64,000 nt of DNA from Pholiota molesta (taxonomy: Eukaryota; Basidiomycota; Agaricomycetes; Agaricales; Strophariaceae): positions 186,001-250,000 of the forward strand of contig JACGCK010000014.1 of assembly GCA_014925825.1 (NCBI GenBank), read 5' to 3'. The position numbers and the translations under genes were made by a program. The notes beneath the pieces were generated by a model that saw nothing but the letters and a program-made list of their open reading frames with translations, was not told where the DNA came from and searched no databases. Below, in pieces: positions 6,823-64,000 of the stretch (position 1 is its first letter; each line of letters begins with the position of its first letter).

Positions 6823-8259
6823 ATGTCCTCAGGCAATCCTTGTCCCTTGTTCTTTGACTCGACGGACGCACAAGAAGTCATCAACGACCGTTACAATCCA
6901 TCCGACGGTCCCGCACCTGCCGTCGTCAATCCGTATCCTCAGAGTCATCCAGGACCATCGAGTGGCTCCGGAAGTGCGGTAGGACCAACACGATCCGCCG
7001 ATGTTCCTTCGTCAAGGAGTCAGTCCGCGCCATATACTAGACGACCGCGTTCGACCGTATCGCAAGGCGGACAGGTTCAACCTCCCACGAGCGATGTTCC
7101 CTTATGTGAGCGCTCGTTCATTTCTGCGGGTCAGATAGTACTAATGACCACATCCATTGCTTTTCGATCACGATAGACAACATCCGTTCCGCAGAAGAGT
7201 GGAATCCGGTATCAGTGTATCAATCTGAGCTCGCCGGCAGAGATGGCCAGATGGGCGCCACCGTCGCCGGCAGCGCTGGGCCCTCATCGAGCCTAGCAAC
7301 CCCTGCTCTGATGTACGTTGCTCCGATTCCACTCTTGAGCTTGCAGATGCTGACTGTCTCCAATATTCAGCGTGAAGAGGGAGCCAGTTGAGCCATGGAT
7401 GAGCGCTAATGCTCCGGCGCCGGGATATTGGATCGGTTCGGAGACGCAAACACCAGTCCAACACCCTTATGCAGGGGCCATAGCCGCCGCGTGGCAGTCA
7501 TCTCCATCGCTGATGATGGCTCCGGTGGTACCGTCGAATGCCGCGTTTCCCTCAACAACCCACGCAGCCGCTCGACCCAGGACACAGCCGTCGAAATCGA
7601 GGACCAAGGCATCCTCATCAGTCAAGCAGACATACTCGCGCCTCGCAGCCGGCTCCGAACACTATGGGCGGTGCAGCACGCAGGAGTGCAGGATGCAGCA
7701 CTGGGATGGAATCGTCAGCCGCCAAGTGTGGCAGGTCGTCGCGCCCCAGGAAGAGCCCACTTCGCCCATCAAGGACTTCGTAACAAGCCTCAAGTACGAC
7801 CTTCTGGCGCTATTTCCCATAGACGCTGCCGCCATCCACGAGACGCTGCGATGGGGGCCATTCCGCGAAATCCACCTGCATTCCCTGTACTCGGCGTCGG
7901 CCATCGACGCGCACGGCCGCGATCTGACGTCGATCCCTGGTTTTGCTAAGATTCCGGGCAGCCTGAAGCTGCTGGTGATGCTAGGTGGGGAGCGGCTCTA
8001 CGACGAGCTGAGGAACCACGTTATGGTAACGGGAGCACTCAGCGTTGCGATCGGTAATGCGCTCCAGCCCTGCGGTTTGGTGATCTGCGACGAATTTTGG
8101 AAGCAGTTGGAGACGGAGAAAGAGGCGATCGAGAACTGGAGAAAGGGTTCCTACGTGTAAGCACCCTTTCACTGAAGAATATCAGAAATTATGCTTACAA
8201 TTCGTTTCAGCGATTTGTTTTTGGACAGTCCTGATCCGCGGACAAGCGTAAGATTCTAG
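6823..8259 (+). CDS. Gene A2: unknown multicopy four-exon gene
   Basis: Exons 6823-7105, 7177-7312, 7371-8156 and 8211-8259 give 417 codons with the same intron positions as A1. Exon 1 belongs to a different sequence class from A1 and A3: it has TRSADVPSSRSQSAPYTRRP where they have IRSACVPSIGNPFAPYTR. It also has a 1-2 residue shorter N-terminus (MSSGNPCPLFFDSTDAQ). Exon 3 is nearly identical to the other copies. The last exon stops early at TAG (SVRF end). Unknown function, no recognised domain. Confidence 0.75.
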
Positions 8260-20468: not shown

Positions 20469-21922
20469 ATGTCTGCAGGCAATCCTTACCCCTTGTTCTT
20501 TGACGACTTGACGGACGCACAGGACGTCATCAACGACAGTTACAACCCGTCCGACGCTCCCGCACCTGCCGTCGTCGATCCGTATCCCCAGAGTCAAGCA
20601 GGATCGTCGAGTGGCACCGGAACTACGGTAGGACCAATACGATCCGCCTGTGTTCCTTCGATAGGGAATCCATTCGCGCCATATACTCGACGACGACCAG
20701 ATTCAACTGAATTGCGAGGCCGACAGGTGCAGCCTCAGCCTCCCGCGAGCAACGTTGCCCTATGTAAGTGTTCGTTAATTTCTGCGGGTATGATTATACT
20801 GATTGACCGAATCTATCGCTTTGCGATCTCGACAGACCACACCAGTTTCGCAGAAGAGCGGAATTCAATCACTTCATTTCAATCTGAGCTCGCCGGCAGC
20901 GGTGGGCAGATGGGCGCCACCGTCGCCGGCAGCGCTGGGTCCTCGTTGAACCTAGCACCTCATGCTCTGATGTACGTTGCTCCAATTCCACTCTTGAGCT
21001 TGCAAATGCTGATAGTCTCCGATGTTTTAGCGTGAAAAGAGAGGCCGTTGAGCCATGGATGAGCGCTGATGCTCCGGCGCCGGGCAACTGGACAGGTTCG
21101 GAGATGCAGACACCAGTCCAGCACCCTTATGCAGGGGCCCTAGCAGCCGGATGGCAGTCATCTCCATCGCTGATGATGGCTCCGGCAGTACCGTCGAACG
21201 CTGCCGCGTTTCCCTCAACAACCCACGGAGCCGCTCGACCCAGGACACAGCCGTCGAGATCGAGGACCAAGGCATCCTCATCAGTCAAGCAGGCATACTC
21301 GCGCCTCGCAGCCGGCTCCGAACACTACGGGCGGTGCAGCATGCAGGAGTGCAGGATGCAGCACTGGGACGGTATCGTCAGCCGCCAAGTGTGGCAGGTG
21401 GTCGCGCCCCGGGAAGAGCCCACTTCGCCAATCAAGGACTTCGTAACAAGCCTCAAGTACGACCTTCTGGCGCTATTTCCCAATGAAGCTGCCGCCATCC
21501 ACGAGACGCTGCGATGGGGGCCATTCCGGGAAATCCACCTGCATTCCCTATACTCGGCGTCGGCCATCGACGCGAACGGCCGCGATCTGACGTCGATCCC
21601 TGGTTTTGCGAAGATTCCGGGCAGCCTGAAGCTGCTGGTGATGCTAGGTGGGGAGCGGCTCTACGACGAGCTGAGGAACCATGTTATGGTAACGGGAGCA
21701 CTCAGCGTTGCGATCGGTAATGCGCTCCAGCCCTGCGGTTTGGTGATCTGCGACGCATTTTGGAAGCAGTTGGAGACGGAGAAAGAGGCGATCGAGACCT
21801 GGAGAGAGGCTTTCTATGTGTAAGCACCCTTTCACTAAAGGATATCAAAAATTATGCTTACATTTAGTTTCAGCGATTTGTTCTTGGACAGTCCGGATCC
21901 GCGTACAAGCGTAAGATACTAG
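20469..21922 (+). CDS. Gene A3: unknown multicopy four-exon gene
   Basis: Exons 20469-20763, 20836-20971, 21031-21819 and 21874-21922 give 422 codons. Exon 1 is of the A1 class (IRSACVPSIGNPFAPYTR), with an extra Gln-Pro pair near the first intron. Exon 3 is near-identical to the other copies. The last exon ends early (SVRY then TAG), as in A2. No domain recognised. All four copies keep open frames and splice sites, which argues that the gene is, or recently was, functional. Confidence 0.75.
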
Positions 21923-30591: not shown

Positions 30592-32804
30592 CTACAAATA
30601 TAATGTGACTAGTTGCATTCCATGGCGTGCTAGTTGATTTCTTGCTATTCGGTAATATGTCCGATATTCATCGAGGCCATCTTCGTCGATGTCGTCGGTG
30701 CTGCAAAGATCGAAGACAATCGGAGCGCGAGTGTCTATTTTCGTGACCGGGCCCAGCGTCGTTACGCTCCCAGCATCTTCCTGACAGGATAATCCCACTG
30801 CGTGACAGGTTTTTGAGACGTGGATATTGCTCTCATCCCCTCCAAAGTTGAGTATACCAAACGTCATCTGGAAGTTACCTTGACTGTTGCGACCATCAGG
30901 CCCAGATATCCCCTTATCCAGCAGGGTATACGTATGGGCTCGGAGCTCGTCTTCCCAGAACTTGATGGGAGCAATGTCCACCACGGCGTAGTAGTCCCCA
31001 ATGGGATTATTCGATGCGGCTGGATCGTCGAATGAGATAGCGGGCATCAATAGGATTGGTATACGCAGCCCCAAGTGAGTCAGTGTGAGCGGCTCTATCG
31101 GTCGCATCGGTTCTACTTGTATGTACGAGTAGCGGTAAAGGTAGCGTTGGGGGCTGGATGGCAGAAGGGAAGAAATCGACGTCCACTGAGGGGAAGGGAG
31201 GTCGGACGCCCAGTTGAACATGTCGAAGACGTCTCGGTATGAGCTCAGCAGCTCTTTGATCAGGCGGAAAAACGCCCTCTCGGCGCCTTCGCCGTAGGCA
31301 ATTGAGATACTGATGTCAAAAATTCCCATCAGTGAATATGCAGTGTCTTCTTCGCGCGTTACTTCACGCTTCGCCGCCAGCTGCATCCTGCGCGAAATAG
31401 AGGTAGCGTGTATGTTCAGCAGCTCGTACTCTGTAATGGTAGTTGCCAGCTCAATTTGTTCCTGGATTTGGGAATCCAACGCGTCGCTATACGGCGAAGC
31501 GCCGACAAGTCGTTTCCAATCCACGCCATAAAACCTCATACAGTTCGGCGCAAGGAGCTCCTGTAACGTCCAACCGCGGGTAAACCAAGGATCCAGGTGC
31601 ATGTCCGGCAGCGACGCCGTCTCCGCGAGATACGTCATACATACGCTGGCGTCGCGATACCACTTATACATCGAGCGAATGGACTCGTCGAGCTCGGCGC
31701 TGCTCTCCTTGTTAATGCACACTGTGTCCATCCAGCCAAGATGGACGCCGTGTTCCGCCCATGACGTCTGGCAGAATTGAACCAGTTTACGGTGGCCTGG
31801 ATGCGTTGAATCGAGGCCTCCTCTACGCCAGTCGGCGTAGGTCACTTCTCCTGGCGCCTCTCGGATCCAGGTATGGGACAAGATGGCGTATCGTGTGTAT
31901 TTTGACACGCACCCTTCGATAGCCTCTAATTCGGCCTCCGCCTCTGTCATCCATGGCTTGATACCAGTCTCAATCTCGGAAACGAACGTGTCCTCGTTGA
32001 ACTCGGATTGCAGCCGCGGTGCAAGGAGAGCGTAAATCTCGCTCCTCTCGAGGAGCGTTATTTGGAGAGTGGTATCGTGCGGCTTGAAGAACAACAGACG
32101 GATAGGCATCTTGTTGAATACGCGGTGGCGGAGCGCCATGAGCACCTTCTCCGTCCGCGTGGGTTGTAGGTGCTGTATGGAGACGTTTTGTTGTTCTGCG
32201 TCTGACGAATAAATATCGTAGTCTTTATAAAATTGTGATTTTCCTCACCGTCGGTGGGATCAGACTGAGAAGAGGATCTTTTGGGTAACGGCACAGGGAT
32301 AACATTGGATTCGTCTACATGAAGAATTGTGTTCGTGCGGCTTCCTCTTGTAACATTGATCGCAAATCTCACCTTCCAAGTCGACCTCGACCTTGTTTTG
32401 GCGGTTTAATTGAGAGTTTACGACGTCAGATATGAAATCGCGGAGTACAATGAGAAATGTATGTCCTTCAGGCCCAAAGGCAACCTGGTTTGCTTGTTCT
32501 AAAGTAAGGCATTGTCAAAATCCACCGCAATTATAATCAACATACGCTCCTGACCTGTGTTATTCCTTCTACCAGTGCCGTTCTGCATGAATGGCATAAT
32601 AAAACACTGCAAGGACCTCAATAATAGCTGTTCTTGAGCGCTTGAAAGATCCGTATGGTCGAAATCTAGCGTGAATATGAGCATTAGAAAGCTTCACATT
32701 CTGAAGTTACTACTAGCTGACTCACCCATACTGTTAGGTTGGTCCTCTAATCGAACATCGGTATCAACTCTTCCGTTAGTTGGATCGTCAGCAGCGTGCG
32801 GCAT
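30592..32804 (-). CDS. HET-domain protein 1
   Basis: Exons 32804-32726, 32665-32546, 32498-32373, 32314-32249 and 32195-30592 give 664 codons. The large last exon carries a classical HET (heterokaryon incompatibility) domain: RYAILSHTW (about residues 232-240), GWMDTVCINKESSAELDES (about 284-302) and WFTRGWTLQELLAP (about 334-347). About 270 more residues follow, ending in HGMQLVTLYL, shared with HET2. The N-terminal 130 residues are spread over four small exons and hold no recognised domain. HET proteins trigger cell death when incompatible fungal cells fuse and act in NLR-like allorecognition; the partner here is unknown. An upstream in-frame ATG at 32906 is an alternative start. Its paralogue HET2 lies on the opposite strand 9 kb away. 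Confidence 0.88.
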
Positions 32805-36378: not shown

Positions 36379-37841
36379 TCATATCGCACCTTTGTTCTGC
36401 TCAAATCTTACACTTGTCCTCGGATCCGGACTGTCCAAGAACAAATCGCTGAAACGAAATGTAAGCATAGTTTTTGATATCCTTCAGTGAATGGGTGCTT
36501 ACGCATAGAAACCCTCTCTCCAGGTCTCGATTGCCTCTTTCTCCGTCTCCAACTGCTTCCAAAATTCGTCGCAGATAACCAAACCGCAGGGCTGGAGCGC
36601 ATTACCGATCGCAACGCTGAGTGCTCCCGTTACCATAAAATGGTTCCTCAGCTCGTCGTAGAGTCGCTCCCCACCTAGCATCACCAACAGCTTCAGGCTG
36701 CCCGGAATCTTAGCAAAACCAGGGATCGACGTCAGATCGCGGCCGTTCGCGTCGACGGCTGATGCTGAGTATAGTGAATGCAGGTGGATTTCCCGGAATG
36801 GCCCCCATCGCAGCGTCTCGTGGATGGCGGCAGCTTCATTGGGAAATAGCGCCAGAAGGTCGTAGTTGAGGCTTGTTAGAAAGTCCTTGATTGGCGAAGT
36901 GGGCTCTTCCTGGGGTGCGACCACCTGCCACACTTGGCGGCTGACAATTCCATCCCAGTGCTGCATCCTGCACTCCTGCATGCTGCACCGCCCATAGTGT
37001 TCGGAGCCGGCTGCGAGGCGCGAGTATGTCTGCTTGACTGATGAGGATGCCTTGGTCCTCGATCTCGACGGCCGGGTCCTGGGTTGAGCGGCTCCGTGGG
37101 TTGTTGAGGGAAACGCGGCATTCGACGGTACTACCGGAGCCATCATCAGCGATGAAGATGATTGCCATGCGGCTGCTTGGGCCCCTGCATAAGGGTGCTG
37201 GACTGGTGTCTGCGTCTCCGAACCTGTCCAAATTCCCGGCGCTGGAGCATCAGCGCTCATCCATGGGTCAACTGCCTCTCTCTTCACGCTAAAACATCGG
37301 AGACAGTCAGCATCTGCAAGCTCAAGAGTGGGATCGGAGCAACGTACATCAGAGCATGAGGTGCTAGGCTCGATGATGGCCCAGCGCTGCCGGCGACGGT
37401 GGCGCCCATCTGGCCACCGCTGCGGGCGAGCTCAGATTGAAAAATTGCATGCGTATTCCCCTCTTCTGCGGAACTTCTGTAGTCTGTCGAGATTGAAAAG
37501 CGATGAATTCGGTCAATCAGTGCGATCTGACCAGAAGTAATAAACGAGCGCTTACATAGGGGGACATTGTTCATAGGAATTTGATCCTGTCCGCCTTGCG
37601 ATGCGGTCGAAAGCGGTCGTCTAGTATATGGCGCGGACTGACTCCTTGACGAAGGAACATCGGCGGATCGCGTTGGTCCTACCGCACTTCCGGCGCCACT
37701 CGATGGTCCTGCATGACTCTGAGGATACGGATCGCCGACGGCAGGTGCGGGAGCGTTGGATGGATTGTAACGGTCGTTGATGACGTTCTGTGCGTCCGTC
37801 AAGTCGTCAAAGAACAAGGGGTAAGGATTGCCTGCAGACAT
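36379..37841 (-). CDS. Gene A4: inverted copy of the unknown four-exon gene
   Basis: Exons 37841-37556, 37483-37348, 37288-36503 and 36448-36379 give 425 codons with the intron positions of A1-A3. Exon 1 is of the A2 class (TRSADVPSSRSQSAPYTRRP). Exon 3 carries a few unique changes, for example ASAVDANGRD and MVTGALSVAIGN preceded by NHF. The last exon keeps the longer ending seen in A1 (RFEQNKGAI). Function unknown. Confidence 0.75.
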
Positions 37842-41655: not shown

Positions 41656-43795
41656 ATGGCATCTAATGAAAAGAAAGCAACAGATGACCAGATCGATACA
41701 GGTGCGTCAGCGTCCATCGACTATGCTTGGGACGAGGGATATACTCATCCACAATTCTAGAGAAGAATAACTTATCTGCAAGCGTATCCGATCAGCCATT
41801 ATTGAAGGCGTTGCAGGACTTTATTGTTCCACTCATACGGAGCATGGATCGAAGGGAGGAAAAGGAAAATAGTACGTCGTCGTCTGGATGCAAGGGAAAT
41901 CGTTCTGAGCTGGCCGATGTGTTAGATATCAATCAGTTTCCCTTGGGATCCGAAGCGGAAAAGTTAATCACGGCACTGCGAGAATTCATTTCAAGCATCG
42001 TAAGAAGTTCGCCATCCGTGACCACAAACACAATCGAAGTGAGCCTGATCGAAGGTGCATATCAATAATCAACTTGTGTCATGCGATAAATGATAGAATT
42101 TACGCTGATAAAAAAGCTATCCAAGCAGATCTCAATGATGGGGAGGAAGACTCCGAGGAGGTCAATGACAACGACGGTGATGGCGACGATGAAGGTATGA
42201 AAATTTGATGATTCTCGTATTAGAATTATAGTAATAGCATCTCGGAACAGCCAAGACCTCGTCTTTTGAAGGTGATCCACCACCTAAGACGCCTTCAAAG
42301 GTAGAGAATGCAGTAACAGGAAACCTTGCAGAAAAAACTGGTAAGAATTAGAGTTATCGTCCATAGACTCTGCGATTGAAGGAACTTATCAAGTATTATA
42401 GGTACCTTGGAGAAACCACTACCAACATTCCATGACAAGCTGTTCAACGCACTCCGAGAGCATGTCTTCAATGCAATGCCAATTCGCCTACTATGTTTCC
42501 AGCCGCACGGATCCGGCCTCCAGATCTCCCTGCTCGAAAGGGGAGCGATCCATGCACGCCTCGAATCAGCACTGCGCGCGAACATCCATGAACCTGACCA
42601 CATCCCACAAACCACTTCGAAAAAGAAGGAAACAGAGGAGAAAGCTATACAGCGCCTGATCTCCAGATACGCACGATACGCCATCCTGTCCCATGCATGG
42701 CTGTCTACGGCCGCCGGTGAAGTCACCTATAGCAACTGGACCAAAGGCGTATTCGATGCGCAAGACCCTGGATATCAGAAACTGGTGAACTTCTGCAAAA
42801 CGGCTTGGAAGAACCACGGGCTTGTGTTCGGTTGGATGGACACGGTCTGCATCGATAAAGAAAGTAGCGCCGAGCTCGATGAGTCTATTCGCTCAATGTT
42901 TAATTGGTACCGCCGTGCTCACATGTGTGTCATATATCTCTCGGAGACCATGACAGTTTCGAATATGCACATGGATCGGTGGTTCACCCGCGGATGGACG
43001 TTGCAGGAACTACTCGCACCACGTGTCATTAAGTTCTATAACGGCGACTGGAAAGAACTCGTCAAGGGTTCGAATAACGACAAAATGGTTTCACAGACTA
43101 TAGAGCAAATCGAGCGCGCAACAACCATCTCAGAGGGCGAGCTCAGCGATATCTACAGCTCGCCGATTTCGCGCAGGATGCAATTGGCTGCGAACCGGAT
43201 TGTGACCCGCGAAGAAGACATGGCGTACTCTTTGATGGGGATCTTCAGTATCAGTATTTCGACTGCCTATGGCGAGGGTGCTGATCGCGCATTCTCTCGT
43301 CTACTCCGAGAAATTTTGAATTCGTATGAGGAGGGTGTCTTGGATATGCTCAATTGGGCGGGTCCTCTCCCGGACTCCCGGCCCCACTGTTCCATGCTTC
43401 TGCCACCCAGCCCTCGATACTATCTGTGCCGATCTTCCATCATAGATTTGTTTGTAGGAATGCTAGGCCGGCCTATAGCGCCACTGACGCTGACACATCT
43501 CGGGCTTCATATCCCAGTCATACTCATGCCTGCAGTGTCAATCTCGGGTGAATCCATCCAACACGACGCTATTGGTGATTTCAACGCTACCGTCGATATT
43601 TCACCAGATACACACTACGATGACTTCCCCACCACCTACAATGTTCTCGACAAGAGAATCTCTGGTCCCGATGGCTCCAACAAGGATAACAACGGTTGGT
43701 ATCAAATTACGCTGGCAGTTTTCAATTTCGGCGGGAATAAATTGAACCTCTTCATTCCGAAAACGTGCACTGCAAGGGGCATGGAATTTGTTTGA
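41656..43795 (+). CDS. HET-domain protein 2, C-terminally truncated
   Basis: Exons 41656-41701, 41761-41871, 41926-42054, 42129-42194, 42251-42340 and 42402-43795 give 611 codons. The acceptor of the third intron could also be at 42116. HET motifs are intact: RYAILSHAW, GWMDTVCIDKESSAELDES and WFTRGWTLQELLAP. It parallels HET1 along its length and through matching intron positions. Compared with HET1 the frame ends about 90 codons early at TGA 43793-43795. The same frame is open afterwards to 44068 and matches the HET1 tail (PIVFDL, HGMQLMSLYM). The truncated region follows the HET domain, so the protein may still act. A role in allorecognition or programmed cell death is inferred from the family. 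Confidence 0.82.
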
Positions 43796-50363: not shown

Positions 50364-51997
50364 TCAACGATGATAAGTCAGTAGGATCTGCGAGATGCTT
50401 CGACGGTGACGATGATGATGATGATAATACCGATGCTCCGCTGTGAGGTGGGGCGCTGATTCATTGACGAAGCCGCTCCGATTTCGTGCCCAAATCAGCC
50501 TGCGGTTGAAACTTGACGTACCCCCATTCCTAGCATACGATAAGACCACGATACAAGGGCAGACTACATTTAACTTACATCAGGGAGTGTGTTGGTGTTG
50601 AGTGCCCCTGGAGCTCAGCCCTTCTGTTCTGGGTGCTGGTGATCTGTTGAGCTGGCCAGCGCCAACGGTGATCTCAAGTTGACCTCTAGGTTTCGCCTGC
50701 GAATGGGGCTGATATTGTAGCTGCCGAGTATATGTCCTGTTATTGATAGTAGAGTCAGTACGATATCATCTCTGTCGCTGATGGATATGGTACAAACTTG
50801 AACGATGATTATTGTCTATATGCTGAAGAGCGGCGTCGGGCCCGCCACCATACGGCGGCGCGGTGTCAATGGGATGGGGAGGCGCATTTTGAAACATTGC
50901 GCGATTAAGGCAGGACACGAGTATACTCGCGAGTCTCGCGGATCCTTACTCGCAAGTATTGAAGTACTAAAATCTCATACTTGGATCCGTACAAGTAGTT
51001 TCCCACGGATGACTCGGATCCGCGAGTATTTACTCACAAGTATTGGCAAGTATGCAAGTACTTGTTGCCTTACAAGTAGAGATGAGTACTTACAGGTAAA
51101 CTTGCAAGTACTTGCAAAGAGTCATGTATTAAATAAATTGTATAGACTTATAGAACTCTAAAAGTCCTTTCGAACGATGCCAAGATTGTATTTTTAGCAT
51201 AAGAATTGACAAAGTTATTAATAATTTGATTTAAGTAAGTACTTTGGGCATCTAAAAACGCTTTTACCTGCAGTTCAAACGTTAACCGCCCGTACCTTTT
51301 GCAAACTTGCACATAAATAAAAGACATGTAGATCCACAGGATACAATTTAGAACTTAATATTTGAGCAACATTCGGCTGAGCTATAGTAGTATCTATGTT
51401 TTCTACTCTTTTTGACTACTTTAAAGACGCTTTTGCCTATGCTTCGTTTAATATAGCCATCGCCCTTTCGCAAATTGGCGTACAGTTAGATATTTAAACT
51501 ACCTTTTTAACAAGCATATGACCATAATATTTGGCTGAGAATTGATTGAGATATTACAAAATGCGCTCAACCACTGCATTGGCTAGTATTTTAGTTGTTT
51601 CTCACTCATTTCTCCACCGATTTTTGTCTTCTCTGAATTATACTACCCAGATATTACCATGTCAAATACTTCTTAGAGTCACAATTAGATAAAATTTAGC
51701 AATATGATTATTAATGCCATAGAGAATTAAATATATCAATATCCACAAGTACTTGCACAAGTATTTGCTATCCCGGAAATCCATACTCGGATCCGGACAT
51801 ACCCGTGGGAACGAGTGATCCGGATCCGCGAGTCAGTATACTTGCAAGTATTCCCACGAGTCGACTCACAGGTACCTGCAAGTAGACACTACTCGTGTCC
51901 AGCCTTATGCGCGATGCCTGAGATCGAAGGAGCCTTGGTGGTATGGTGGATGAGGGAAATCTTTTGAGTGTAATATCTGTCCTTAAATTCGAGCCAT
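50364..51997 (-). pseudogene. Gene C (right), broken by stop codon and hAT insertion
   Basis: Counterpart of 12167-12781. The start region (ATG 51997) has TAA at codon 5 where the left copy has CAA. The first exon is split by the 1002-bp element 50906-51907. The last exon (50549-50364) is open and His/Arg-rich (EHRYYHHHHRHRRSISQ). It is clearly non-functional in its present form. Confidence 0.5.
50906..51907. mobile_element. Non-autonomous hAT-like element 1
   Basis: 1002 bp with 18-bp terminal inverted repeats (TAAGGCAGGACACGAGTA against TAAGGCTGGACACGAGTA) and an 8-bp target duplication TGCGCGAT at 50898-50905 and 51908-51915. The matching left site (ATCGCGCA, 12249-12256) is empty. The ends hold many cttgcaagta and gatccgcgagta motifs, like transposase-binding repeats. 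The core is AT-rich and has no transposase frame, so it would need one in trans. An 8-bp duplication is typical of the hAT superfamily. Confidence 0.9.
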
Positions 51998-52722
51998 GCT
52001 TTATACTGTTGCAACTTGCACGATCTGTTATCTACGTTCCATCATCGTTCAACGACCTCGAAATACTTGTTTCATGGTGATTTTTTGAATATGCCAACGT
52101 CCACTTGACCTCGCAATTACAATAACAACAAGCAGCAGTCAATCACTCGTGGTTCAGAAATGATGTAGCGATGAGATTTGATTTTTCCTAAACTATCGAA
52201 CAATGGACTCAAGATGCTCTAGTAGCAAGATATTAAACGCGGTTTATTACACATGTATCGGTACTTGATCGGCACCATACATCCCCTCGAAGATCCCTAA
52301 AAAGAGAATGACCATCTGTGCCACTCAACTCGGTCGGCTATTGTTCGAACAAAAAAGTTTCGCAGAAGGAGTGGCACAGCTAGATCTGAAGATTTATTCA
52401 GGCCGAAGATCGGGCAGACAATGGGCGAGGGGGGAGGAATCATACAGAACGATAACGGCGATGTAGACGTCGCGCGATCCCGAGATAATGCTGCGGAAAG
52501 GACAAGAGGCACGAAACAATACCGAGCTCACGGATCTCGGACGGACGCAACGAGAGTGCCGGGGATCATACGCAAGCAATGGATTCTCAAGGAGCGATAC
52601 GTACGTGCCCGTGCAGGCAGGCGCCATCTCACTTGAATGCACTAACGCACGCATCACTGCTAACTGTGGTACCTACACGCGAGCATAATAAACGAACACC
52701 GCACTTCGGATGATGCGATGGC

Positions 52723-53233
52723 ACTAGTGTCTGGTGATATCATGCATGAAATCCTGGTAGTTCGCCAGGAAAGAAGTTGCATCCAGCCTGGTAACTCAGC
52801 TAGCATAGCCACCCCACCTATCTGGCTTTGAATCTTTCCACTCTAGGCAGGTGGTCTGTGCTAGTCACTGGGTGCTGTGATGGTGATCACTGGATGCTGT
52901 GCACTTGCTCACCATGCTCAACAGTGCCCAGCACTCCTCGTCGCTGTTGTCAGGGTCATCCCAAAATGGAAATTCCCAAAATAACATTTTTCTAATATTG
53001 CTGGCATTGCACCTGGGCAGCTGGTCCACTCTGTTTGGGGCCCACTGGGACCATTTTATACCTGTAGATGCGGAATTTTATTCTGAATACAGCTGTGAAA
53101 TTTTCATATTTATAGCTGCATTGGTTCACGCGCTAGACACGAATTACTGATGGTGTAAAATTGGCGCCCACAAAGAATATTCCTTTCCTCCTTAACCGCG
53201 GCATCGTTTTGCATGATCTTAGGTTGTATCTAG
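52723..53233. other. Unassigned sequence, no gene
   Basis: No homology to the left arm after 52722. It contains short inverted motifs (ctggtg and caccag-like) around 52735-52920 and an unsupported 83-codon frame (52899-53150). Confidence 0.35.
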
Positions 53234-54800
53234 AGGTATTAAATGCGCGCTTCTAACGCGTCCATGATCATAATTTGACGTCCGTTGCTTGCTCCATAAA
53301 ACAGCCCGCACGAATTTACGCTCGCACCGCTTTAGCGCCGGCCACGCTTTAAATATTTGCGCGCATATTATACCATAAAATAGCTTAATATTACACCTTT
53401 CCAATGATATACTACTCGTGTGTATTGGACTACTGTACGCGACCTTATTTACAAAATGGTTGTTTTCATATAGCATAGGAACCAAAAATCGCATCAGCGA
53501 GCGCTTAGGTGCGTTGTCATCTTCTAGATTTATGGAATTTAATGACACACTGACTATATGGGTCAGAGCCCGGGAAGGCACTGAACCAGCTGCTGGGCTG
53601 GCATGAATATTGGCTGGCTGGCTGGAAGAATTCTATATTTAGCGTTCGGACCGAGCACGTGTCTGTCGGCTGTGTGCCCTCCCCCCCTCCCTCCTCCTCT
53701 TTTCCTCCACACCCACTGCACCGTTTGGCTTCATTTAAGATGGTACTTTTAGGTATTAAATACGCGCTTTTAACGCGTGTATAACCATAATTTTACGGTG
53801 CTTTGTCGCTCCGTAAAATAGCCCGCGCGAATGGCACTTGCACCGCTTTAGCGCCGGCCACGCCCTGAATATTTGCGCGCATATTATACCATAAAATAGC
53901 TTAATATTACACCTTTCCAATGATATACTATTCGTGTGTATTGGATTACTGTACGCGACCTTATTTACAAAATGGTTGTTTTCATATAGCATAGGAACCA
54001 AAAATCGCATCAGCGAGCGCTTAGGTGCGTTGTCATCTTCTAAATTTATGGGATTTAATTACACACTGATTATATAGGTCAGAGCCCGGGAAGGCACTGA
54101 ACCAGCTGCTGGGCTGGCATGAATATTGGCTGGCTGGCTGGAAGAATTCTATATTTAGCGTTCGGACCGAGCACGTGTCTGTCGGCTGTGTGCCCTCCCC
54201 TCCTCCCTCCTCCTCTTTTCCTCCACACCCACTGCACCGTTTGGCTTCATTTAAAATGGTACTTTGAGGTATTAAATACGCGCTCTTAACGCGTGTATAA
54301 CCATAATTTTACGGTGCTTTGTCGCTCCGTAAAATAGCCCGCGCGAATGGCACTCGCACCGCTTTAGCGCCGGCCACGCTTTGAATATCCGTGCGCCAAT
54401 TACATTACAAAATAGCTCAATAACACACCTTTTTAACAATACCTTATTTGTATTTATTGAAAAATGTCTTGCAGCCCTATAAAAGAAATGGTTGTTCATA
54501 AATAGCGCAGGCAGTATTTACTGTACCGCCGTGTGCCTACGTGCATTGGAATCTTCCAGATTTATTGAATTTATTAATGTCTCCATTATAAAAATTGGGG
54601 ACTAGGAAGGTGGTGAATCAGAAACTGGGCATTACTTTGCTAGCCGGAATGACGCTATATTTAGCATGCCATGGCTTTGCTGGCTTGACCGGCATTTCCG
54701 GGCATGGACCGGTGGTGTCCTCCCACTCTCCCAAATCTTGAATTTTCGATTTCTCTCCCCTTTTCTCATTCTATCCCTTCGTTTTCTGCTTCAGTATTTT
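53234..54800. repeat. Three tandem units of about 517 bp
   Basis: Units begin with aggtattaaat at 53234, 53751 and 54267 (periods 517 and 516). The first two are very similar throughout (for example gagcccgggaaggcactgaa and ggctggctggctggaag). The third matches closely for about 120 bp and is then clearly diverged. Minus-strand open frames (53581-53219, 54010-53756, 54499-54272) repeat with the unit and have no recognisable domain. No terminal features of an LTR or inverted-repeat element were seen. Confidence 0.8.
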
Positions 54801-54953
54801 GTACAGGGGGTGTGGGCTATCAGATAAAAATTAAAAAGTTCAATCAATTGAAGATAAGATAAAGTAAGATAACAAATAGTATGCAACCTGACAAAAAACA
54901 AAACATTTAAGAAGATGCTTGTAAGATACGGTAAGGTAGAAGCTAAAATAATA

Positions 54954-57416
54954 TTAGCAGAAGGTCAACTTGCAAATTGTGATGGATATATACAAGTCAG
55001 GTTTGTATGTCACTGATCTAGCACGGGCTATCCAGGCAGTGACACAAGGCGGGCGCCCTGCGCTTCCAAGTTTCGCCTGCTCTTCATAGCCCGAATCCTT
55101 TTCGAAGTGCGCCCACGCCCTTACTAGCTGTACCCAAGATGGCCCGAGATCGTTCGAAAGAAGCATCTGGTATGCTTTTAAGAACCAATCTGGACAACCA
55201 GCAAGTTGCTCCTGAGTCAGAGGGGCAGTTGATTCAACGGCTGGCATGCTGGAGTCAAGGTCCAATGGGATTCCGGTAGTGGCAACGGCTGACGGGGCTG
55301 GGGCATGACCTACGGCACTGGTTGTGCCTTGAACGGACCCGCCATTTATCCCTTTAATCCTCGAGGACCTCAGACGTTTCCTAGGTGGGCTAGACTCGGG
55401 ATCATTGGGCTTCGCAAGACTGTCCTCGTCTTCATCGGAACATGGACGTTTGGGCAAGGCTACTTCTTCAGCCGAAGGCAAAGTAGGTGGCATTGGCGCT
55501 GGCTTCTGAGGCGCCGTCGTTGCAAACAAGCCTTGGGATCGCATCGCCGGCAGAGCGCGCTGTGGTGTCGCTGAAAAACCTCGATCCGCTGGCGCAGATA
55601 AGGCAGAAGGCGCCAGCACCAGCAACGCGCAGGAAGGCGCCAGAACCGGCGACGCGTAGGGCGATGGTGCTGGCGAAGGCACAGCTGACAGACAGGGCGA
55701 AGGAGTGGGGGGTGGCAAGGCACATGGCGCCGGTGCTGGCGATGGACAGCACGAAGGAGTGGAAGGTGGCGAGGCAAAGAGCGACGGCGCTGGCGAAGGC
55801 GCCGCTGATAGGCATGACAAAGGAGGGTGGGATGGTGAGGCAAAGGGAGATTGCAAGGCATAGAATGACAGTGCTGGCAAAGGCATGGCTGGCAAAGGAG
55901 GGGGGTACTTCCCTAGCAAAGTCTCTGAATGCGGCGCAGCCTGCAAAGGCGTTTGTGGGATCGACTCCATTGGCGGCTTCGCCAAGCGGTTGAGCGAAGA
56001 TAGCGGGTCACGTTGGCTTGTCCTGCTAATGGGGGGCCCGAATTTGGCTGGGATTTGGGACGTCAAGGACGGCGACGGCGTTTCAGGCTCATTGAGGTTA
56101 CCCGGCGCGCGAGCGACCTTCACGTAGGCAATGGAGTCTTCCATGGAATTGATACTGAAATCGCCGCCGTCTAATCGGAGGACATCCGCAAGCGATACGG
56201 TAGTCGGATCCACAAGGGCAGCTGCGCGACAATCTTCAATGGCTACACACAGAATTGGTGAGAAATATCACTTCAACAAGAAAGGAAAACTTACTATAGC
56301 ACTTCTTTAGAAAGTTACCGAAGATTGGCATCACAAACGCCTTATATGCTTGTCTCTCGGCCCTTCCGAAGTTCATCTTGATGTTGCCAACGGTTTCTCC
56401 CGAATGAAAACTACAAGATGGGATGAGATTCAGAACGGCAAGCAAATATGGTCAAAAACGTACCTCATCATGTTCAAGCGACCTTGATCGGCGGGCTCAG
56501 GACCGCCGACGAGGAGAGTAGCTTTCCACCCTGTATAGTCGGCAATTAAATCCAAGATGGGCTGAACGAAAGTTGGAAGGCCTTTCAAAACGCTGTGAAA
56601 GGCTGTTGAGAATACAAGAAGGATTTCCTTGAGAGAAGTATGACTTACTGTTGGCAATCTGCAGGATCCGATGAAGGCGGGGCGTTCAAAGCCTCTTCAA
56701 TTCTCTCTAGTGCCGCGCGATGCTCCTCAGCAGCTTCGTTCTCGTAGTCCTTCCTTTCCTCCTCATCAAGCTCCGCGAAGCACTCCTTGTAGACTTTAGT
56801 TCGAAGCGCCGCTCTGTTTTTCAAGGGGGTATTGTCGGTCTTCACGCGGTCCTCGTAAATGGGGTCCGCGAACTGTCGGTTTCGCTGACCCCACAGGATG
56901 TAGGCCGTTTTCATGCGGGGCTTCTTCACAGGAATTCCGGCCAGCTTAGCCAATAGCACGGTCATAGGATCCTCTGAACCGACGGTGATATGTTTTGTTG
57001 AATTTTCGTCCTTGGCGTATTGGTAGGCAAGACGCCGTGTGATTTGCTATCCAAACGAGAGGCGTAAGACAGAAGAATAGAAACAGAACTCGAAGACGTA
57101 CGCCTTTGCGGAATTTCAAGAGCTTCACTTGCCCATCATATATGATTTGAGCAGCCTTGAAGGCCTCATCGTCGAGAATTGCCTGATCAGGCGGAATAAA
57201 ATCTTGGTCGGGGGCGTTGTCATCTACTTGGGCCAGAAAATCGGCACTAGGTTCCACAGTATGTAGCAAAGACATCGGGTAACACTTGAAATAGCGGCGC
57301 TGAATGTCGGCAACAGTGTCTGCAGCATGATTTCCAGCCACTGCGTCCGCGTAGAGTGCGCTCTGTGCGGAGAGAAACTCCTTGCGCGTGCCAAAGAACG
57401 CTCCGGGATTGACCAT
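54954..57416 (-). CDS. HMG-box-like protein of an agaricomycete expanded family
   Basis: Exons 57416-57102, 57046-56649, 56592-56464, 56410-56295 and 56242-54954 give 748 codons. It starts MVNPGAFFGTRKEFL, a beginning I associate with a family expanded in mushroom genomes. Residues about 146-215 (KKPRMKTAYILWGQRNRQ to YENEAAEEHR) resemble an HMG-box-like DNA-binding region. Residues about 390-530 are a Pro/Ser/Ala low-complexity stretch with repeated APSP units. A basic nuclear-signal-like PPRKRLRSSR follows, and a conserved C-terminal region (CPDWFLKAYQ to TAWIARARS). It probably acts in the nucleus. Together with the TET/JBP-like gene it suggests a transposon-linked module; that link is inference. 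The last 18 residues may be read-through of an unrecognised intron. Confidence 0.65.
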
Positions 57417-57858
57417 AGTAATTGAATGAAATTAAAACGAGTGGGGGAATGGACGCTGGAGACTCGAGAGGCAACCAAGGGTAGAGTCTTAGAGAAATCA
57501 AAGAAATTTGGGCCAGACTAGAACGGGCTAATTGCCCCATTTTTGTTGGGATTTGTAGCACGATGTTTGACAGACGGACAACGGAGTGAAACGCGATCTG
57601 CGATTCCACAGGAGAGACACAGTAGTTGCGCAGAAAGACACAGTTGCGCAGAAGAAACTTGGGGAGCATACGCAATCCAGTTAGCGGCGTGCCTGTGTAA
57701 CATCAACGAGTCACGCGTGTCACAGATCTGAAGTTGCAGCCCTTCAATCCAAACCACACCCATGTCCGTGCACGGCAAATCTGAGATCTCGCTCCCTCGC
57801 TCCGTTCCTTTAAATGCCCGTTGCACAAACATCCAAGGCCCATCTCTGCATCCAACAT

Positions 57859-58940
57859 ATGCCGTCCCCACCTTCCAACACCTCCGACGAATCATTCAGC
57901 TCTGTTTCCGCCCAATCAACCATGTCCACAGCTTCTGACCAGTTCGACGAGGTCATTCCACGTGAGTATACACCTTTCTACTCCCCTTCCCTATTCTCAA
58001 AACTGATACATTCTGTGGCTTAGCGTCGAACACCGTGTTAAGCTTCTACCAGAAGTCAACCATGATCACCGGCAGACAAGTTCCTGTCAAGCACCCTAGA
58101 CGCGGTCAAGGTACGGCATATTACTTCGATATCTTCATCTCGCTGAACTTCAACGCCGTTTAGGACATTTTGTCTTCCAGAAGACGGTTAAAACCGAAGA
58201 GATGGTTATCCAGAACACTGCGACACCCCCAACTATCATGCTCGTAAAGTAGGCCTTTGTTCATCCCCATACCGCTTTCATGTATACTCAGTTCATTCAA
58301 AAATAGGGACCAGGGAGTTGCACCCAATGAAAAACTACCTACTGCCGTCGCGCCTATCGCCTCCGTTCCTGCGGCTGTACCCCAGGGCGTTCCCATCCTT
58401 AACCCCTTCTTCAGACCCAACAGAACTGCCAATGCTCCAGGCCCATCAAACAAGCGAGCTCGTAGACCTTCTATGGCTAATGCGGAGCATCCTGGCCGCA
58501 ATATATTACCTACTGCCCTCGCGCCTATCGCCTCCGTTCCTGCGGCTGTACCCCAGGGTGTTCCCATCCTTGACCCCTTCTTCAGACCCAACAGAACTGC
58601 CAATGCTCCAGGCCCATCGAACAAACGAGCTCGTAGACCTTCTGTGGCTGATGCGGAGCATCCTGGCCGCAAGTATATCCTCATCAGCAACGATGGGGGT
58701 AGAAAAGCGAAGGCCAAGGAGGTCATTCCCGCCGTTCGACGCAACACCACTCCCGTCAGACGCAACGCCGCTCCTGTCGGGTGCAAGTTCGCCCCCGCCG
58801 TCCGACACAACGCCTCTACCGCCATCGAACGCGAGGTCGCTCCCGGCGTCGAACGCGCAGCCACTGCCCCCGAACACGCTGACGAACTCGGCTCCCCAAT
58901 CGTCCTAGTTGAGGACAGCGAGAACGCCTTCAGTGCTTGA
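57859..58940 (+). CDS. Unknown protein with a 57-residue tandem repeat
   Basis: Exons 57859-57961, 58024-58110, 58164-58248 and 58307-58940 give 302 codons. The N-terminal part is Ser-rich (MPSPPSNTSDESFSS), followed by a conserved-looking core (SNTVLSFYQKS, PVKHPRRGQ, FVFQKTV, TPPTIMLV). The last exon holds two nearly identical 57-residue repeats (VAPIASVPAAVPQGVPIL, NKRARRPS) with NKRARRP nuclear-signal-like basic motifs, then an Arg/Ala-rich tail. It is transcribed divergently from the HMG-box-like gene (start codons 442 bp apart). No family recognised. An earlier in-frame ATG at 57814 is possible. Confidence 0.65.
58336..58677 (+). repeat. 171-bp in-frame tandem duplication
   Basis: Units 58336-58506 and 58507-58677 differ at only a few positions. 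The length is a multiple of three, so the frame is kept. Recent duplication inside the coding exon. Confidence 0.9.
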
Positions 58941-59553
58941 ACCACATTCCTCGAACATTTTCCCTCGAAAGCCCGTTGTGTTTCGTCTTGGAATATCTAC
59001 TTCTTCTCATACCCAGCCCGTCGTGTTTCGCCTTGGACTATTTACTTCTCATACCTAGCATACACTTTCTGTACCTAGCAAAAAATCTCATAAGCACTGA
59101 ATAAATTGGCTTGTTTCGCCATCAAACAAAACAATATCCTCTCTCGCAAATACTTGGCATCTAGATATATTTGGAATTGGGTTGGGGCATACAAATATTT
59201 AGCACCTATGTCATTGGAATGCAGAGATGCTGCAACAGGCTTAATAGGGCTTAATGAGCCTTCGGAATGACTTAATCTGTCAGATGTAATCCCCATTCAG
59301 AAATTTTGGTCATATAAAGATGTCTATTATAGCCGACCCCACCCTCTCAGCACGGACAAGAAGGCATTGGGTGGGCCATTGCCGTGTTTCAGAACAAATA
59401 TTCAGAATTCTCCGCCACCATAGATTTTTTTAGATTCCTTCCAGAACAAATCAGAGACGCCGTGAGGCCCATCAGCAAAAGGATCGTCGAATAGTACTGA
59501 AAGGAGATGTACTCTATTCATTCAAAGATTATTGCCGGATTCTCCACGGCGCC
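58941..59553. other. Intergenic, no gene
   Basis: Between two convergent genes. It contains a short repeated piece (cccgttgtgtttcgtcttgg and cccgtcgtgtttcgccttgg, near 58970 and 59010). No supported open frame. Confidence 0.4.
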
Positions 59554-60040
59554 TCAGACTTTTTTCTCCTGTCCGGTAGCGGCCTTTCGACGCTGACTGG
59601 GTGGGTGGAGCAACCCGGGTGAGAATTGCAGCTATAGAGTTGAAAAGAGGCCTTACCGACGCAGTTTCTCTTTGGCCCTGAGCTCGTCTCTATGATTTTC
59701 TCGGTGCGCTGCCCGTATCTGCTTACGGCGATCTTTGATTTCTTCCTGCTCGGCTTGAGGAAGTGTTTCGAATCGCCGTTTGTCCCTATGAAAAGTGGTA
59801 AGCAGCGCAAATGTTTGGATATTTGTAAATATGTGCTACCTATCCCTCCTCTCTTGGGCTTTTTGCCTCAACCGCTTCGAATTCCTGCTGGAAGGTGAGC
59901 ACTAGCAGGAGTGGTAGGTAACAAAATACTCACTTTAGATAGTAAACATTGTGTCGGCTGAGTTTAGGGCCATCTTCAGCGGCGGTAACATACGTTGCGG
60001 TATCGGGTTCCATTTTCTGGAGCAGTGAGCTTTTAACCAT
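59554..60040 (-). CDS. Short basic coiled-coil protein
   Basis: Exons 60040-59934, 59887-59840, 59785-59657 and 59596-59554 give 108 codons. All three introns are GT-AG (46-60 bp), and the frame only works when all are removed, which supports the model. After a short N-terminal part (MEPDTATYVTAAEDGPKLSR) the protein is a highly charged Arg/Lys/Glu helix (RDKRRFETLPQAEQEEIKDR and on), likely a coiled coil or nucleic-acid-binding helix. I recall similar small proteins in other mushroom genomes but cannot name a family. The start could also be at 60013. Confidence 0.6.
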
Positions 60041-60941
60041 GGCTCTTAAATACCTTTTGCACAACTTTTGGATGTCCGAGCAATGCGATTCAACAGATCC
60101 CGTCCCGATCAGTTCCAGATTAGGCGGCTCACATACTATTTATGGAAGTTAATTGATTCTGCCTTGCAACGTCATTGCGCCTCGATGGTACGGACCAGAT
60201 ATTTGAAGGAAAACAATAGATTGCTGCACTAAATTTTATATACAATGCTTCGCAAGGTAGGTGTACAAGAATCCGAACTTAGATTTAAATATATCCAGGA
60301 GGACTTCTCACAAAAAATGTATCTGTTGCGACGTCGCCATGCACACACTCCGCACCTCGGGTTTGAACAGAGTAAATCCCATTGAGGTCTCAAAGAGGTG
60401 GATACTTATGCAGGCAATGTGTATGCATTTAATTTTTAAAAAATACAGAGGATTAATAGAGAGGAAGTGGCAGCATGCGAGATTGTGTCGCGACGTCGCC
60501 ACAAGGACTTGCCCGAAGAATGTATGTATAACTTAGTACGGTGTTGACCTTAATGGTGGTACACCTTGTCCTTTTATTTTGCGAATGATACACCGTCACT
60601 AATTCTTATAACCGTACCATATAATGTCTATAGCTAATTGTTTCAGTATACTCAAACAATACACAGAATTAGTAGAGCGGAAGTAGCAGTATTCGAGATT
60701 GTGTCGCGACGTCGCCACAAGGGCTTGATTGAAGAACACATGTATAACTTGGGATTGACTATGGCATGTCTTGTTTCTTTTTTTTCGCCAATGATACGCC
60801 GCAGCTACATTCTCATAATCAATAACATCTAAAGTCTACAGCTTATAGTTTCAACATGCTTAAGTCCAGGAGGTTCATTGCTCAATGTTCCGAAGATCGT
60901 ATTTCAAAAAGGTGTATAATATTTAACAAATGCGGCGTGTA
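60041..60941. other. Intergenic, no gene
   Basis: AT-rich, holding the short tandem repeat at 60443-60860. No supported open frame. Confidence 0.4.
60443..60860. repeat. Two-copy imperfect direct repeat, period about 216 bp
   Basis: Both units contain gattgtgtcgcgacgtcgcc and a following acaagg-cttg...tgtataactt block, starting near 60443 and 60659. A further gcgacgtcgcc sits near 60330. Non-coding. Confidence 0.65.
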
Positions 60942-63452
60942 CTATACGTTTCGATTTCTAACGAGCCGATTCCTGGCATCCTGATCTACGGGTAAGCTCT
61001 TCATGGTGGAAAACAAGGACAGCCCGAGTTTACATCGCGCTTCCTGCCGTTTGACATCCTCCTCCACACCCTCGTCAGACAGTGTCGCCGTATACGTGTT
61101 CGTGCATTGGAATCCTTGGTCTGCCCATCGAAAAAGCCCACCCGCACTGAATTGAGTGAACGAGTATCGAGTTTCACGGCGCCCAATCGGAACGTTGGAG
61201 TGAGGGATGGCTGCCGAGGGGACGAGGATGGTGGATCCTGGGGGGAATTCGATAACGAGTTTGAGGCTCCACAGTATGAGATGGCCGCCTTGGGAGGGGT
61301 CGAATTCGCCGAGCGCAGTGATGCCACACCAGCCAAATGGGAGGTTTGCGAAGTCGCGGTGGCGGCGGCAAACGGTTTTGGGGCCGAAGTTCACCGCGAA
61401 CGAGGCCCAGACGTTGTTGGGCCAGTTGCGACGAAGCGAAGGATCGTGCTCCAGAAGTGCGTCGAAATGGCTTTCGTAGTACGTGTAGAGGTTCGGGGCC
61501 CATGTGGCAAAGGCTGCATTGGCGTACTTTGCGATTCTCGAGATGTTTTCGTTTGCAACAAGGGCTGAGAGCGCCCTGCTATTCTGGGCGTTGTGGGTCA
61601 GATTTCCTGGTTGCTGAGGAGAAAGTGAGTTTAAAGCAAAGATATAGGAGTATACACGTACCTTCTGTCCCCCGCCATGAGATATCCCCCAGTTTAACGC
61701 AGCAAAACTGCCCCGTCGATGGCGAAGTGCTTTTTTCGGGAAGTGGCAGCGGCCTCTGGATTAGTGTTCGAAGGTCCGGTTACAAGACCGGAAAAAGACC
61801 GCAAAAAAACCGGACCACAACCGCGCTGGACCGAAAATAGAATGGACCGATCAAGACCGCAACCGCGGTCCGGTCCACGGTCTTTCCTAATTTTCTAAAT
61901 CAAAAGACCGATAAAAACCGGTTAGGACCGGTTAGGACCGGTCTTTCACCGACATTTTTTGTAGCACGGTAGAGCGTCAAAAACCATCTTCAACAATGCT
62001 AAAAACATATTTTTAGCATCAAATTTGACGAAGATATTAATAGTTTACGATTAAATCGTTATTTTGAGCGCTTAAAAACGCGTTTGCCCGCAGTTCAATC
62101 GTTAGGCATTCGTACCTTTCGCAAACTTGCGCATAAATAGATGACATGTATATCTACAAAATGTATTTTAAATTTTATTAATTGAACAAAATCTGACTAT
62201 GTTATAATAAAATCAATATTCTCTACTTGACTTCACTATTAACAAGACGCTTTTGCCAACGGTTCATTCGTTAAATAAGCTAGCCTTTCGTAAACCAGGG
62301 CCAAGGTATAAAATCAAAATACCTATCTAACGAGCCTTTATACATAATATTTGGGTAAGAACTCATTGAGATACGGGCAAATGCGCTCAAGCAGTCCAAT
62401 TTCTACTATTAAAATAGTTTCTATAGGTAAAATCAATTTGAAGTCGGCCCACAGACCGGTCTACAACCAGTCCTCAACCAGTCTTTAATAGGACTGGTTG
62501 AGGACCGGTTTTTTGCGGTTGCTCAACCACAGAAGACCGACGTAGACCGGTTTACGTCGGTCTTGTGCGGTTTTTTGCAGTCTTTAAACTGCAGTTAACC
62601 GGTTGCAGTCTCGGTCCATGGCACCTAGGGCCAAAAGACCGGACCGGACCGGACCTTCGAACACTACTCTGGATGCTTGGATGGCCTCCGCTGCGCCGCG
62701 ATGGGCGACATCCCAGTCGGGGGCATCTGGATGCCCGGCAAGCACGGCAATAATGCGCGAGGATGCGTCGATTATGGGCCTCGCAGTCCTGAAGATCACG
62801 TTTGGTTAGCCAAGTAGGGAAGACTGAATGACGCTGATACTTACTTACCATCCCAGGCTTCAATTTTGAAGCCCAGGACATCGACAAGCTCCTTAAGCTT
62901 ATATATCCCTCCAAATTCGCCATGATCTGGAAGAGAAATATATCCCGTGGCAGCTATCGGAAAATCTTTCGAGTCGAAGGACGTTTTTGTGGGTTTGGCG
63001 GGTCGAACGCACTTATCGTAAGCGGCCTGGCTGATTTCAAGGGGGCGTGTCCGAGCAGCATCTCTCTGGGCATTGCGTTTCTCTGTCCGTTTTGCGCGCA
63101 TTCTCTTCTGATTCCGCCTCCTTTTGCTGTTCTGAGGTTTAGGGGGTGGGTTGTGCGCATTTGGAATGGACAAAGGTATGGTGGAGGCCTTTGATGGGTG
63201 CCGGAATGACGAGCTTGGGTCTTTTGGTTGTGGGGATGCTGACCTAGAGGAGGATGGAGACGAAGATGCCGAGGTACAAGGCGAGGTAAGGGGGGATGAG
63301 CCGAAGAAAAGGCGATACTCCAGTTCGAGCGTGTCTGAGGGCAGACGGTCCATTGGGCCGAGATCTTGCTCTTCGTAGCCTTCGTCCGCGATGGTCTCAT
63401 GGAGGCTGTTTTCGAAGAGGAAGGTGGGATCCTGTGGGCGTACGGCAGACAT
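60942..63452 (-). pseudogene. TET/JBP-like 2OG-Fe(II) dioxygenase gene split by a hAT element
   Basis: Exons 63452-62845, 62788-62675 plus one copy of the 8-bp target duplication, 61753-61662 and 61613-60942 join to 497 codons once the element 61762-62666 is left out; lengths and phases agree. The last exon carries the catalytic fold: an HxD pair in VCRRHRDFANLPFGWC (about residues 359-361), then GGHLILWSLKLVIEFPPGS, a distal His in PSAAIPHSNVP (about 412) and Arg in ETRYSFTQFSAGGLFRW. This layout is what I know from fungal TET/JBP proteins, which oxidise 5-methylcytosine or thymine in DNA. The N-terminal part is Ser-rich and basic (KRRRNQKRMRAKRTEKRN). As it stands, the gene is disrupted in exon 2 (913 extra bases, not a multiple of three). 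Confidence 0.75.
61762..62666. mobile_element. Non-autonomous hAT-like element 2
   Basis: 905 bp bounded by inverted repeats TAGTGTTCGAAGGTCCGG and CCGGACCTTCGAACACTA, with the 8-bp target duplication CTCTGGAT at 61754-61761 and 62667-62674. Both ends are packed with aagaccgg and ccggtc motifs. The AT-rich core (about 61985-62430) is clearly related to the core of element 1 (ttcgcaaacttgc, cataaata, agacatgta). No transposase frame. It interrupts the TET/JBP-like gene. Confidence 0.92.
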
Positions 63453-64000
63453 AGACGCGACAAGGCCTGTATTACCTGAGGGTGGATGGGTCAGTTGTGG
63501 CGCAAGGTTGGTGAGATGGATTGAATGGGAATTGAATCCTAACACGCCAACGCCTCATGCGTACTGAGATTCCCGGGGGGTCGAGTATCAGAGCAGAGGC
63601 ATAGTGGGCGACGCACGGTATGGGATGGTCAAGTCTGACGCGCCGGCTGAGATTCCCGAGGGATCAAGTATCAGAGCCATTGCGTCTGACCGTGTGAGGG
63701 GGATGTAGGGTGGACGATAACTTGCTCACCTAGCATCTGTGGAAGGGATGTGGCGTGCAGAGCCGTTGGAGGGGGTATGGTTGTTTAGTTGGATAGTTGG
63801 AACTTAAGGCTTAGCCGAGGGTTGATCTAGAGTAAGTACTTTGTTTAATTTCGAGCGGACCGCGGTGACAGTGCACGTGCATGCGCGTCGCGCGTCGCGC
63901 ATCATCGTACGTCCTCTGAATGATAATCACTCACTGGCAGTACCCTCCACAACTCCGTCAGCTATGTCTCGCCCGTTCAAAAGGTCTAAAAAAACTCACT
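63453..64000. other. Upstream region of the TET/JBP-like gene
   Basis: The same frame continues upstream to an ATG at 63543-63545, so a longer start or an intron (gtaatacag) near 63470 is possible. Repeated gagattcccg-gg and tatcagagc motifs at 63568-63590 and 63650-63675 form a short duplication. No other gene seen. Confidence 0.4.

Follow-up and report, generated by a model that had tools for sequence, protein, structure and literature searches.

The window analysed here, 64,000 bases of the genome of Pholiota molesta, a member of the Strophariaceae (bases 186001–250000 of contig C46, which is 660,119 bp long, in an assembly of 65.6 Mb and 625 contigs), carries on its minus strand a gene for a TET-like dioxygenase whose second exon is cut by a small hAT element. 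The gene itself lies within a far larger KDZ transposon that runs past the end of the window. For features beyond 64000, the window numbering is continued on C46 and referred to as extended coordinates.

The TET-like gene and the hAT element in its second exon

The gene spans 63452–60942 on the minus strand and consists of three exons, giving a 497-codon product once the hAT element and one copy of its target site duplication (TSD) are skipped. Exon 1 (62845–63452) starts with an ATG at 63452 and has a homologue on contig C163. Exon 2, read from the flanks of the element, is split into a first part at 62667–62788 and a second part at 61662–61753, and exon 3 (60942–61613, stop included) carries the domain of a 2-oxoglutarate- and Fe(II)-dependent (2OG-Fe(II)) oxygenase with its HxD, H and R residues. 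Exons 2 and 3 form a single open frame when the element and one TSD copy are omitted. The exon 1 end at 62845 is a donor that keeps the frame; an alternative donor, with the exon ending at 62849, is out of frame. The introns are short, about 48 and 56–60 bp. An uninterrupted frame across the insertion had been described in a first-pass annotation of the window, which named many frame lesions in the exons as the sign of an old and fixed element; no lesion besides the insertion is found. Comparison of the C46 and C163 copies gives nonsynonymous and synonymous divergences (dN and dS) of 0.079 and 0.565 for exon 3 (158 codons) and of 0.18 and 1.14 for exon 1 (198 codons). Since the coding sequence of the two copies has evolved under purifying selection, the gene was probably kept working until it was hit by insertions.

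The element occupies 61762–62666 (905 bp) and ends in perfect terminal inverted repeats (TIRs). The 8-bp duplication CTCTGGAT is read on both flanks, at 61754–61761 and 62667–62674. The insertion and its precision are directly visible, and its size, place and duplication are as the first-pass annotation described them; the inverted repeats are perfect as stated there, yet 19 bp rather than 18 bp long. The motif of the ends, TAGTGTTYGMAGGTCCGG, has 63 occurrences in the genome against none for a reversed control pattern, and is therefore not a matter of chance. Scoring of 40 of 228 candidates gave 40 genomic places with long matches to the element, one of them split, so that the copy number is put at about 40 or more, and 30 copies were read with their flanks. 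A perfect 8-bp duplication stands at the script-chosen borders of 22 of these 30 copies, counting the row of L017, which is a different nested element, and is absent in 8. The four nearest copies differ by 1.8–2.7% (Kimura two-parameter distance). Over 906 columns, with the seven nearest copies compared, the window copy shows 10 private substitutions, which supports a recent insertion, as had been proposed.

The superfamily of the element can be told from its ends. On contig C101, a larger element starting with TAGTGTTTGAAGGTCCGG encodes a hAT dimerisation domain protein (PF05699, E 7.6e-6, above the cut-off). Another copy of the family, L032, is nested in a hAT element whose end is homologous to that of the window element, with a PF05699 match just inside. 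Because the C101 element and the host of L032 link its ends to the hAT domain, the window element is best read as a non-autonomous hAT miniature inverted-repeat transposable element (MITE). It resembles hAT-superfamily MITEs in its 8-bp duplication, its short perfect inverted ends, the lack of a visible transposase frame and the ends common to transposase-encoding hAT elements. Its 905 bp are longish for a MITE. The clean borders likewise agree with the hAT-type insertion first suggested.

The KDZ transposon around the gene

A KDZ transposase gene adjoins the TET-like gene in divergent orientation. It starts on the plus strand at 63964–64000 with the first Met of its frame (MSRPFKRSKK..., position counted by hand) and continues past the window, where its CxC2 and KDZ domains lie at L066:1129–1710 and 2132–2731 (PF18803, E 1.5e-35, and PF18758, E 6.4e-35). 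This gene is broken as well: at L066:2732–3634 it is cut by another member of the hAT family that hit exon 2, with the TSD ATGCTGAT.

Both genes lie in one TET+ KDZ transposon of 18,191 bp, which begins at 52722, passes the window end at 64000 and reaches 70912 in extended coordinates (C46 base 256912); a homologous copy is present on C163. The unit reads CACTAG...GGCTG, with CA..TG ends, and GCGATGG stands on both sides with all 7 bases alike, the left copy at 52715–52721 and the right copy after the transposon end, 6.9 kb past the window. The right end was set independently by comparison with the C163 copy. In its outermost 31 bases the left end is a weaker mirror of the right one, with a close match further in; the left terminal inverted arm (52722–54740, plus strand) is 96.3% identical to the right arm at 70906–68886 (extended).

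Duplications of 7 bp and CA..TG ends are features of Kyakuja elements (PMC12730594, section 3.2.1). The TET+ Kyakuja transposons of Agaricomycetes treated in that paper also combine a KDZ transposase with a TET/JBP gene in a mushroom host. The inverted arms of about 2 kb, however, weigh against a Kyakuja assignment, since the passages of PMC12730594 on these elements, two Laccaria families among them, describe them without TIRs. The unit is therefore called Kyakuja-like and its lineage is provisional. It differs further from the elements in those passages in that both of its identified genes are each broken by a hAT element. Cryptococcus KDZ1–KDZ3 (PMC12810828) are also KDZ transposons with a KDZ domain and TIRs, but they carry CxC1 instead of CxC2, with inverted repeats of 139–241 bp and duplications of 4–8 bp, and TET is not among the domains named in the figure legend passage. 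TET+ KDZ transposons are a published kind; the present locus, at which the limits of such a transposon could be set in a mushroom genome, is not described in the literature searched.

Across the genome, a KDZ match stands within 10 kb of 22 of the 43 TET-like loci, against about 0.9 expected, and 21 have none so near; some of the 43 may be assembly duplicates, since the TET loci on C53, C249 and C295 are nearly identical and set apart mainly by small gaps. In this count, those of the 128 KDZ rows that were weaker than E 1.1e-9 were left out, hits less than 3 kb apart were merged, and the split C163 gene was counted once, its second half being removed.

Some smaller features were observed in and beside the unit. 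The arms of the C46 copy are 96% alike versus about 65–74% to the C163 arm, as if homogenised within the element. A 48-bp array was the sole result of Tandem Repeats Finder over 52500–55000, and an Rfam scan of 52000–64000 gave no match above gathering. Two proline-rich open frames within the unit, at 54954–56267 (minus strand, no Pfam matches) and 58192–58940 (plus strand), are possibly further cargo. Just left of the unit, at 51151–51602, lies a fragment of the hAT element family, 68% identical.

Identity of the dioxygenase

From 742 protein relatives found, 120 were listed, and 37 picked from these were aligned with the window exon. All 38 aligned sequences share His85, the distal His138 and Arg149, and Asp87 of the HxD is present in at least 90% of them, the window protein included; P0112 has Ala. 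The window protein thus has the HxD...H Fe-binding triad and the distal Arg that characterise TET/JBP enzymes, a pattern already noticed in the first reading of the gene. The best match of the predicted exon 3 fold among solved structures (Foldseek) is CcTet of Coprinopsis cinerea (7vpn, 8jkk, 7w5p), which shares the HxD...H...R core. The two proteins are only 15–18% identical over the aligned part, and the activity of CcTet is not to be assumed for the window protein.

Several results weigh against a TET assignment. The window protein has no match above the Pfam cut-off, and exon 3 has no Tet_JBP match. Among the 38 aligned sequences, Tet_JBP is matched by 6 at E≤0.01 (best 9.5e-6) and the general family PF13640 by 9. 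A profile of the 38 sequences, searched by sequence against solved structures, found no TET structure. In Foldseek, NgTET1 comes at rank 18, behind a gamma-carboxylase at rank 9 and a prolyl 4-hydroxylase at rank 12, although these two have root-mean-square deviations of 15–19 A. Apart from these results, single-sequence searches of solved structures returned none for P0053 and for the L001 frame and a weak CcTet match (E 0.048) for the L004 frame, and NCBIfam gave no matches among 4 proteins. Because the window protein lacks a Pfam match above the cut-off and the profile search gave no TET structure, membership rests on the fold, the motif and the 6 Tet_JBP matches, and the protein is described as a TET/JBP-like 2OG-Fe(II) dioxygenase on the strength of its predicted structure. 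The TET/JBP type named in the first-pass annotation is supported by the fold and the motif.

Alternatively, the cargo of the transposon may be a non-TET 2OG-Fe(II) oxygenase, for instance of the prolyl 4-hydroxylase type. The larger number of PF13640 matches and the rank of the prolyl 4-hydroxylase (6iuq) point in that direction, and some database entries among the relatives bear prolyl 4-hydroxylase names. Furthermore, AG-type TET is defined by Gly/Ser and Asp at the positions of CcTet 331 and 337 (Kojima 2025, PMC12730594). Provided that the ungapped register after the HxD holds, CcTet Gly331 and Asp337 correspond here to Asn90 and Cys96, both invariant, in apparent difference from the TET+ Kyakuja proteins in the passages of that paper. 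Given the closest fold and the conserved core, we nevertheless regard a non-TET enzyme as unlikely.

Nested insertions and other explanations

The locus is, in all likelihood, a TET+ KDZ transposon that inserted and was later cut by hAT elements, and represents nested transposon decay rather than regulation of a host gene. A Kyakuja-like KDZ transposon with its own transposase and a TET/JBP-like dioxygenase entered the chromosome, as its ends, its 7-bp duplication and its genes show. The dioxygenase presumably oxidises modified bases, by which the transposon would escape methylation-based silencing; this role is a published proposal for the class, without experimental validation according to PMC12730594. 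The non-autonomous hAT element then inserted into exon 2, its mobility presumably supplied in trans by the hAT transposase of an element that shares its ends. The transposase gene received a second member of that family, before or after the hit on exon 2. Read through, a TET transcript would meet a stop 27 codons into the element. Because this predicted stop precedes the catalytic exon, the window copy should yield no active oxygenase, and its TET function should be lost. Since the transposase is cut too, the broken KDZ copy is probably dead and immobile, unless it is helped in trans. Hits by small transposons on both identified genes would be one route of death for TET+ KDZ elements, and counts of fungal TET genes can include such broken transposon cargo.

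Other TET and KDZ genes of the genome have met similar fates. The C163 KDZ copy is free of both hAT insertions and has unoccupied sites at the same places. A 5.0-kb insert (L067:2636–7656) disrupts its TET exon 3; the insert is bounded by identical direct terminal repeats of 403 bp, has a 5-bp duplication, GCGGG, and appears to be of the long terminal repeat type. On C555 (at about 502.5 kb; L045:12–953 with L076), a further TET-like gene is interrupted in exon 1 by a hAT element of 942 bp, which belongs to a sister family of the window element and has the TSD CATAGAAT. Similarly, a KDZ transposase on C45 (87.3–88.2 kb; L077/L078) is cut by a hAT element with the TSD ACCAGTAC, and its frame resumes on the far side. 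Altogether, three TET-like genes of this genome proved to be cut by other transposons, and the precise hAT insertions read in KDZ or TET genes number four (TET and KDZ on C46, KDZ on C45, TET on C555). With three cut TET-like genes in one genome, it becomes testable whether the host or the transposon benefits from TET enzymes.

These insertions could also mean that TET+ KDZ transposons are preferred targets of hAT miniature elements, parasites that would either gain from a low-methylation state made by the dioxygenase or ride along on the moves of the larger element. Copies of the hAT element lie within 10 kb of KDZ in 5 of 40 cases, against about 0.85 expected. The Poisson figures for hAT insertions are built on rough expected values picked after the data were seen and are not relied on. 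Moreover, 20 long frames were chosen beside 12 of the 30 copies, and 6 of them, beside 5 copies, match reverse-transcriptase/RNase H families above the cut-off; one further frame has a retrotransposon-family match below the cut-off only. Some hAT copies interrupt retrotransposon genes and others lie near them: at L007, L010 and L034 the matching frames directly border the hAT element, and at L020 and L022 they are 98–443 bp away. General nesting is therefore sufficient, enrichment near KDZ is set aside as an explanation, and a preference for TET+ KDZ transposons seems quite improbable.

Nested decay also takes the place of an attractive idea in the first-pass annotation, namely that a host gene of the DNA-demethylation type is switched off reversibly by a mobile hAT element and restored by its excision. 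The clean insertion, the open exon frame, the youth of the element (four copies 97–98% identical) and the hAT transposase genes encoded in the genome would all suit such a switch. However, the TET-like gene is housed in a KDZ transposon of 18.2 kb, beside a divergent transposase, and the transposase of the same copy is likewise cut. An empty or footprint allele was not found in the assembly: a search with 57000–60941, which covers one side only, returned besides itself only C163 (69–79% identical) and, over shorter stretches, C625 and C224. Footprints are common after the excision of hAT elements. As the gene that was hit is cargo of a transposon which is itself disabled, the reversible switch is unsupported and highly improbable, and the reading of the gene as a switchable host demethylase is corrected. 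Highly improbable, too, is that the element is removed by splicing and the gene still works, even though the frame is otherwise intact and certain eukaryotes are known in which DNA transposons may turn into introns. The introns of this gene are only about 48 and 56–60 bp, and a scan for in-frame removal of the element, restricted to GTRNG donors that precede the first stop and YAG acceptors within the element's final 60 bp or past it, yielded no pair.

Elsewhere in the window, four scattered copies of one frame of 267–311 amino acids, alike by eye, lie at 1710–2513, 7354–8160, 20888–21823 and 36499–37431; the one copy checked has no Pfam matches. The minus-strand frame at 30592–32244 encodes a heterokaryon-incompatibility (HET) domain (PF06985, E 3.4e-9), and the plus-strand frame at 42380–43795 resembles this frame by eye.
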